From Gari tellinella (taxonomy: Eukaryota > Mollusca > Bivalvia > Cardiida > Psammobiidae), in contig OV277861.1 in assembly GCA_922989275.2 (NCBI GenBank), forward strand, positions 52,739,623 through 52,803,622: 64,000 bases of DNA. Reading direction: 5' to 3'. The position numbers and the translations under genes were made by a program. Below, one piece after another: positions 33,301 to 36,300 of this stretch (the stretch's first letter is position 1; the number at the start of each line of letters is the position of its first letter). The notes under the pieces are model-generated. The model was not told the origin of the DNA. It was given only the letters and a program-made list of their open reading frames with translations, and searched no databases.

Positions 33301-36300
33301 TATTACTTTATTACAAAATATTTGGAGAAAATTTTTTATTTTCATATAAAGGGAATGTGGTCAAAGTTAAAAACCTTAAAATTCACAAAAGTACCAGGGT
33401 TCCAGATAAGAGGGAGTAAACTGAACAAATCCAGCATTTTCTCATTTATTTCAGCACCAAATCATATGGTGTTACTACTCATTAGAATCACCTCTTCGAG
33501 ACAATTCTAATGAGTAGTGACACCATAGGGTTTAAAGCAGAAATAAAGATTTTAATTTTTGAAATACTCCCCTTATCTGGAACCCTGAAGTACCACTAAT
33601 TAACTTGTTTTTCACATTCAAAGAGTTAATACGCTAACATGCCCACGTAATTAAAAGCCCACAACATACAAACATACATACTGAATGTACCTGGGTGATC
33701 TTCTTCAAGTCCTCTACAGCAGGACCTGCACTAAAGGTGATGTTAGATACTTTGCTCTGCAAGTAAACAACAAGAGGAGAAATATATCATTCATCTTTAA
33801 TGTATAGCTTGTTTTCTGTGTTCAGGACAGAAGAATAAATAAAGTGGGCTAAAACTAAACCAGAAATCCACAGTATCTTTAGTTTATTTACCCCTAGGTC
33901 TCAATTTTTTACTTTCCCCATAGGTCTATAGTGTTGACTTACCGTCCCCTTGTTCTCTAGTGTTGTCTTAACCACTATGTCTCTAGTGTTGCCTTAATCC
34001 CAAGGTCCCTAGTGTTGGTTAATACACACCTGTCCTGTCTTTAGTGTTAACTATTCCCTGGGTCTCTAGTTTAACCCATTACCCCATAAATATGCTTTTT
34101 TACGCATTTAACTTATCCCCCCACTGAAGAAAATAGTTTCACTTTATAAAACTATGAATATGTATATAAAAAAAATAGTTTCTTTAGCCTAAATTAAAAA
34201 GATTGTAGCTTAAAGCAGGCTGAAAGTAAAGCAGAATGTGCCTTAAGGCACATTCTGCTTTACTTTCAACCTGCTTTAAGTGGTCTACTATCTACAATAC
34301 TAGAAACAGGCTATGGGGTAAAGGGCTAACCCCTAGATCCCTAGTGTTGGTTAATATACACCTGTTTTGTCTTTAGTGTTTACTATCCACTAGGTCTCTA
34401 GTGTTGGTTTAAACATCCTCTCCCTGGTCTCCTAGAGTAGACTAACCCTAAGGTTTCTAGTATTGTCTTACTCCTTTTGTCTACGGTATGGTTTCACCAA
34501 GTCGCTATTGTTGATTTGACCCCTAAGTTTCTAACTGTGAACGTTGATGTATCCCCTGGGTCAATAGTACTGACTTGCATCCTGTGTCTAGTATTGTCTT
34601 ACTCACTACATGTAATTATCTAGTGTTGGTTTAACCCCTTTGTTTCTAATGTTGAATTAACCCCTAAGGTCTCTAGTATTGACATTCCCCAAAGGTCTCT
34701 AGTGTCAACATTCCTCAAGGTCTTTAGTGTTGACTTACCCCTAAGGTCTCTAGTGTTGACTTATCCATGTCTCTAGTATAATCTTCACACACACACACAA
34801 CCCCCTAGATCTCTAGTCATTACTTATCTTGCTGTCTCTAGTATTACCTTACCCACTAGGTCTCTAGTGTTGACTTACCCCTAGGTCTCTAGTGTTGTCA
34901 ATATGCACATACACTATCCGCGGGTTGGCCTGACCCTGGCATATGATGGTTATAGTCTTTAGCTTGTTCCTGTCTTCATCGCCACTCTCCCAGAATGTCT
35001 CTGTAGAGTTGTCTATAACACAGAGTAAATGATCAATATTTAAGTTTTTATATCTTTATGTTCAGTTCACTGCCAATGATAATTTTCATTCAAAAGACTT
35101 TGTTCTTTCTGTTTATGCTATTAACACTAGTCTTATGCCCTTTGCAAACAATTTTGAGCTAAGTATAATGGTGGGGACCCTGATCAAAGGGTTCCTGAAG
35201 GAGTCCATTTATCTGGGTCTACAATGTTTGGAAATGATGTATATTCTCAGTTCCCACATTATGGTTTAAAGAAGAGGACCTCTAATGAGATGGGCCAATG
35301 TTGGTTAATATCGGAACACTACAGACAGCAATCAACCATTCTCAGACAAGCGGCTGAAGAGAAGGGCATCTCGATTTACTAGAGTACCCATTTTAGTCTA
35401 ATCTCATGATTAGGGGTCCTCAACCATAAATCTACAAATACAATCAAAGTGAAGATCAATTTAGGAAACTTAGCCCTGTTAGAGCCTATTTTCAAGTATA
35501 CCTGTTAGACTTGCTATCATAGCCTGGCGACTGGAGGCCTTGATCTCTGCTGTTGGTGTGAGGTCCTTCAGAGCTATCACTTTATAGCCAGCCTGTGTCA
35601 TATAAAACAAAGACTTGATTAACCCATTACCCCATAGCCTGTTTCTAATATTGAAGATAGCTAACAACTTAAAGCAGGTTGAAAGTAAAAGCAGAATGTG
35701 CCTTAAGGCACATTCTGCTTTACTTTCAGCCTGCTTTAAGCTTCAATTTACTTACATATGGAAAATATCTCTAATGGTGCAAATTCATAACTGTATAAAT
35801 TGGAACTATTTTCTCTGTGGAGGACTAAATAAAAGGCGTTAAAATGCATATTTATGGGGTAATGGGTTAAACCCTTTCCAGTTTGATCTCACAACTATTG
35901 AAAAATGACCCAGTACAACAACACCAAATGGGAGACAAAGATTGTGTGTGTTGTTTGGAGGAAGCTGTTAAACAGAGAGGGAAAATGAATACCCTGACAG
36001 TCCTGAGCTTACATTTGCAAAGAGTTTGAACCAAGATCAGATGCTGCGTAACGCAGCATCTGATCTGGGCTCAAACTGTTTGTCACTCGTCTTCATGTTT
36101 CTACTGTCAAAACGTCCAATACAGAATTTTGAGAAAAGTAGCAGACAAGTTTAAGCAGACAATATTGCAGCAGCGAATACGTTAGACATAAACATAAATG
36201 TCTTGTTTGGAGGAATAATGGCAAGCATTGTTGTTAGGAGGGAATCATTGTTCGTAGGGCCTTTGTCGGGAGGGAGCACTGTTCTGGTTTCCACCACAGA

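Follow-up and report, generated by a model that had tools for sequence, protein, structure and literature searches.

A 64,000-nucleotide (nt) stretch of the genome of the bivalve Gari tellinella (assembly GCA_922989275.2, contig OV277861.1, positions 52,739,623 to 52,803,622), hereafter the window, carries on its minus strand a MYCBP2-type gene with a DOC domain, one intron of which holds a degenerate tandem array resembling the 3' edge of the exon before it. Four exons of the gene, E1 to E4, were recognised from splice signals and reading frame. The product of these four exons matches the Pfam family ANAPC10/DOC (PF03256, E 8.4e-9), and of the eight named proteins among the matches listed, five carry the name 'E3 ubiquitin-protein ligase MYCBP2', in one case with the suffix '-like'; two are hypothetical proteins and one is an RCR-type E3 ubiquitin transferase. 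A search of PDB returned no sequence match, and a scan of viral contigs for relatives found none. The MYCBP2 ligase has a neuronal role. The DOC-domain exon, E2, ends in the codons GAC AAC ACT AGA GAC CTA GGG and is followed, across the exon/intron boundary at 34879/34878, by the donor GTAAGTC.

On the gene strand the array runs from 34896 to 33885 as decayed copies of AACACTAGAGACCTAGGGGTAAGTC, with a unit of 25-26 bp. Its position, the exon end, the donor and the approximate unit length agree with a first-pass annotation of this DNA, which had counted about 30 units; the repeat itself lies far above chance, and parsing resolves 27 intronic units of 23-34 nt each, with 16 nt (34796-34781) falling outside any unit. 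Identity of the units to the exon unit spans 0.68-1.00, and 14 of the 27 individually exceed 24, the highest score in any of 60 dinucleotide shuffles of this region, a strict control because the shuffled region contained the repeats themselves. A miniature inverted-repeat transposable element (MITE) sits inside the array, dividing it into two parts (Table 1).

Table 1. Features of the E2 edge, its intronic array and the neighbouring exons (window coordinates).
Feature	Position	Strand	Remarks
E1	35592-35502	minus	splice signals, frame
E2, DOC-domain exon	34879-35012	minus	134 nt; acceptor TTATAG/ACAACT, donor GGG/GTAAGT; supplies founder unit
Founder unit	34872-34896	minus	last 18 exonic nt (AAC ACT AGA GAC CTA GGG) + intronic GTAAGTC
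TAG in E2 reading frame	34864-34866	minus	four codons (VSQH) lie between true donor and TAG
Decoy donor TGG/GTAAGG	34847-34852	minus	nearest decoy, +26 nt
Decoy donor GGG/GTAAGT	34733-34738	minus	+140 nt; 9-mer identical to true donor
Decoy donor ACG/GTAAGT	33937-33942	minus	+936 nt; top-scoring intronic GT on donor matrix
Array, part one	34330-34871	minus	degenerate, intronic; unit parse
MITE	34075-34325	minus	inserted within array; TTAG/TTAA flanks, central palindrome 34209-34280
Array, part two	33885-34073	minus	beyond MITE; unit parse
76-nt block, twice	33995-34402	minus	about three units; 33995-34070 and 34327-34402, 87% identity, flanking MITE
E3, next exon	33691-33756	minus	acceptor TTGCAG/AGC; frame carries on from E2
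E4	30757-30530	minus	splice signals, frame

The relation of the array to the exon was examined with the exon itself left out. The consensus of the 27 intronic units alone, AACACTAGAGACCTAGGGGGTAAGTC, matches the exon edge in 25 of 26 columns, the remaining column being one extra G, and it scores 46 at the exon end, with no other place in 224 kb above 26. A score of 26 is reached at six places outside the array, and the four of these that were printed are ends of the local MITE family. Additionally, near-copies of each GTRAG site were counted as copies of its 25-nt edge no more than 1.2 kb downstream; of the 148 such sites tested in the window, three have more than two, namely the true donor (15) and two that lie within the array (12 and 11), and when the survey was widened to 224 kb (546 sites) the next-best sites reached 6. 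Within 1.2 kb, no near-copies were found for the donors of the other exons (E1, E3, E4) or for any of the four acceptors (E1 to E4). On the sequence, the 3' end of the exon itself, together with its donor, thus appears to be the source of the repeat, as the first-pass annotation had proposed, and the likeness of the repeat to the exon end exceeds what chance provides.

Searches of the 1.6-Gb assembly, which score the best candidates only and so give copy numbers that are lower bounds, located the array at this locus alone. The 16-mer core AACACTAGAGACCTAG has at least three matches, all at the array locus with the founder counted, and a 261-nt array query has at least two, both within the array and one of them the query itself. 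At up to three mismatches a 21-nt unit was found in at least seven places, three at the array locus (founder counted) and four elsewhere, each of the four being a single place with no array; the reversed 21-mer, used as a control, gave at least 56 matches. The many copies elsewhere that a genome-wide satellite would have were not found among the best candidates scored. Within the searches made, the array is unique to this locus.

The age of the donor position was assessed in 165 homologous open reading frames (ORFs), those of the window excluded, taken from three protein searches (the best 120 of 162 matches, 13 of 13 and the best 120 of 497). These homologues are visible as ORF tails in one frame, not as intron DNA. 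The motif H[IV]DN.RD is present in 132 of the ORFs listed and absent from 33. Following the motif, 112 of the 132 run on as V (83 of these as VS), which is the expected read-through of a GTAAGT-like donor at this place, 19 stay coding (NK, SK, HK and others) and one stops there. Many of the ORFs may come from near-identical organisms, so the 112 do not stand for as many lineages. Seven of the read-through tails begin VSQ, and none begins VSQH, the read-through of this gene. The pattern indicates that the donor position is old. No array was seen in the visible frame of any of the 165 ORFs listed, where a shifted or distant array could be missed by one-frame tails. Since the intron position is old and no homologous ORF displays the array, the exon edge is likely the founder. 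One homologous ORF, P0126, reads DNTRDLAVSYNSRDL after the donor, which resembles an in-frame duplicate of 27 nt. It was considered as a second species with the duplication and rejected: its likeness (DNTRDLAVS-YNSRDL) amounts to four of six identities, which is equalled by 3 of 90 tails and by 120 of 300 shuffled sets and is not significant by shuffling.

Few of the array's donors are intact. The two GT dinucleotides at 34738-34737 and 33942-33941 had been named as intact donors, and both keep GTAAGT exactly as claimed; they are nevertheless the only such units among the 27, joined by a GTAAGG at 34852, so that several intact donors, or a row of them, are not found. Scored with a donor matrix, the true donor reaches 5.27. 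The sites at 33942 (6.26) and 34029 (CAG/GTGTGT, 5.68) stand above it, 34738 ties with it, and the donors of E1, E3 and E4 score below it. U1 pairing was -9.8 for the true donor and for 34738, -9.7 for 34852, -8.8 for 33942 and -7.2 for 34029. Predicted RNA accessibility, at most 0.009 for the true donor and five other GTs, was uninformative. The reading frame of E2 meets a TAG shortly past the true donor. Of the 69 GTs in this intron (true donor counted), 67 lie beyond that TAG, among them the three named decoys. Two GTs precede the stop: the true donor and, 4 nt further, a very weak one. Use of a decoy would therefore add no repeat to the protein, only a premature stop or a truncated message. 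The stop position fits selection that would keep the first donor.

Decay is uneven along the unit. Identity is 0.84 for the 18 exonic columns and 0.72 for the 7 intronic ones (p 0.006), but for the six exonic columns that adjoin the donor no difference from the intronic columns was found (p 0.39). Among 6-mers of the array, ACTAGA occurs 14 times, GTAAGT in 2 units, CCTAGG once and AGTCAA 3 times. A search for three-unit periodicity found none overall (p 0.32), though the one 76-nt block is duplicated.

An insertion into the array had also been described by the first-pass annotation, as A-type. The insertion is confirmed; its nature is different. With a TTAA target, inverted ends (76%) and many copies, it is an abundant TTAA-targeting MITE, putatively piggyBac-like. 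Its palindrome is near-perfect (36-nt arms, no spacer, 97% complementary), and its end occurs in 24 copies within four substitutions in the window, the copy in the array counted. The TTAA target would fit the unit variant GGGGTTAA, which occurs in two units, those with their starts at 34680 and 34653. Translated MITE ends recur, by eye, in many spurious ORFs of the window. Separately, the segment 34872-34911 of the exon edge resembles ends of the MITE family, for which chance and a shared seed are both possible.

We consider it very probable that the array is an exon-edge minisatellite of the kind called a 'mirage', grown from an old edge of a MYCBP2-type exon, with mostly dead donors and little or no function. 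The last 18 coding bases and the 7-base donor would have been duplicated in tandem into the intron, presumably by slippage or unequal exchange; copies would have risen to about 27 and then decayed, one block of about three units may have been duplicated again, and a TTAA-targeting MITE would have landed inside the array. Being coding, and the sole plausible donor giving an open message, the real exon edge is kept intact, and the spliceosome most likely picks this first donor. The array is probably neutral and consists of mostly decayed repeat DNA. Several observations weigh against this account. Unit order and decay had been read as growth out of the exon, yet units farther from it are no less identical to the exon unit (Spearman rho 0.07, p 0.72), and neighbouring units resemble each other no more closely than after shuffling of their order (p 0.475), so that the array keeps no record of how it grew. 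The relatives are seen as one-frame ORF tails only, and 90 of the 112 read-through tails are long enough (6 residues) to be tested for a duplicate, 22 being too short. Finally, the exon edge scores 24 against the whole MITE on both strands, a value reached by 8 of 3000 shuffles in what was a single post-hoc test. Given this likeness to the local MITE family, a MITE-assisted start retains some chance.

That last observation also speaks for an array derived from the MITE, or begun when the exon edge recombined with a similar MITE end, and it is joined by an alignment of CAACACTAGAGAC---CTA-GGGGTAA with the MITE end CAAAACTAGAAACAGGCTATGGGGTAA (score 22) and by the MITE ends printed among the six tied places outside the array. 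For each of the 27 units the exon is nevertheless a closer match than the MITE end, a score of 22 against that end is also attained by 48 of 3000 40-mers drawn at random from the window (true MITE copies among them), and homologues not showing the array conserve the exon residues; we regard a MITE origin as improbable. An assembly artefact or chance periodicity could be suggested by the degeneracy of the units, only 14 of 27 of which pass individually. The divergence among units would be unlike that of duplicated or collapsed reads, the MITE sits inside the array and the contig extends over 99 Mb, which leaves this explanation scarcely credible.

Decoys might be used on purpose, with the sites at 34852 and 34738 acting as a valve whose in-frame TAG truncates or destroys the transcript and so tunes MYCBP2 dosage. 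Their pairing to U1, equal to that of the true donor at 34738 and nearly so at 34852, and the stop that each carries would suit such a role. Retention of GTAAGT in 2 of 27 units, and a donor part that is less preserved than the exonic part, the opposite of selection for decoys, do not; furthermore, splicing is reported as undisturbed in the published text on lancelet mirages (PMC3087553, PMC3902484). We judge the valve very improbable, and equally so a working splice-donor trap in which several U1-binding decoys with immediate stops would set the output of this dosage-sensitive ligase gene at a strength that shifts with repeat number. Purging of decoys is the reverse proposal, namely that donor-dead units were favoured because live decoys mis-splice. 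It is hinted at by the 6-mer counts, with GTAAGT in 2 units and ACTAGA 14 times, and by the lower identity of the intronic columns. Against it, 6-mers that are not purely donor (CCTAGG, AGTCAA) are just as rare, and the units are not independent. Donor-specific purging is inseparable from erosion of the neighbouring exonic columns, and we do not claim it because the donor-adjacent exonic columns eroded like the intronic ones; it is unlikely, and neutral decay of an exon-edge repeat is the reading that we prefer.

The first-pass annotation had called such a structure unusual; precedents exist. In amphioxus, 'mirage' minisatellites are described for Adh3 and the globins BflGb6 and BflGb9 (PMC3087553), with PGBD5 and TnC added later (PMC3902484). 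The unit lengths given there are 10-72 bp (Adh3), 60 and 108 bp (PGBD5) and 150-160 bp (globins), and the BflGb6 units, in 3 or 6 copies, are 81-100% identical (PMC3087553, PMC3902484). As in the amphioxus cases so described, tandem units of the Gari array span the exon/intron boundary (18 exonic and 7 intronic nt), the authentic exon edge itself counts among the units, in this case as their founder, and some copies retain splice signals (2 of 27 GTAAGT, 14 of 27 GT at the donor columns). Unlike the mirages in those accounts, the present array has about 27 more diverged units of 25-26 bp with mostly dead donors, and lies in a MYCBP2-type gene. Judged from a single assembly, the array has the sequence features of a mirage. 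Further marks of a mirage are length differences among haplotypes or tissues and splicing that stays normal in spite of the copies. Few exon-edge minisatellites were found in open-licence PMC text, a search from which absence from print does not follow.

The minisatellite of human IFI6 (6-16) has a unit of 12 nt. It gives multiple splice donors (Turri et al. 1995, via PMC4526556), and two downstream units are said to act as donors encoding isoforms (PMC4526556). The array described here likewise consists of donor-like minisatellite units repeated at the end of an exon, and it differs from IFI6, as far as that gene is described there, in that the in-frame TAG precedes nearly all intronic GTs, so that downstream units would not serve as donors for longer isoforms. 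In a mollusc, intron 3 of an abalone TSSK1-like gene holds a 27-bp minisatellite array, intronic and of similar unit length, whose unit is not described in that text as derived from an exon edge (PMC6905558).

Two other arrays were noted. An 82-bp, 7-copy array, 96% identical and with GTGAGG in its units, lies at L019:6148-6743, with apparent minus-strand exons of the same gene nearby by eye; it was considered as a mirage and set aside, being on the plus strand with no exon edge seen by eye. At 1093-1655 the window holds a 40-bp minisatellite (82-bp double) of about 14 copies with 80% matches.

Exon-edge minisatellites bear on how the spliceosome chooses a donor among near-identical neighbours and on how introns grow or are gained. 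The Gari array is a useful case: its first copy is indicated by the coding sequence together with the age of the donor position, and the immediate stop codon makes any use of a decoy easy to score.
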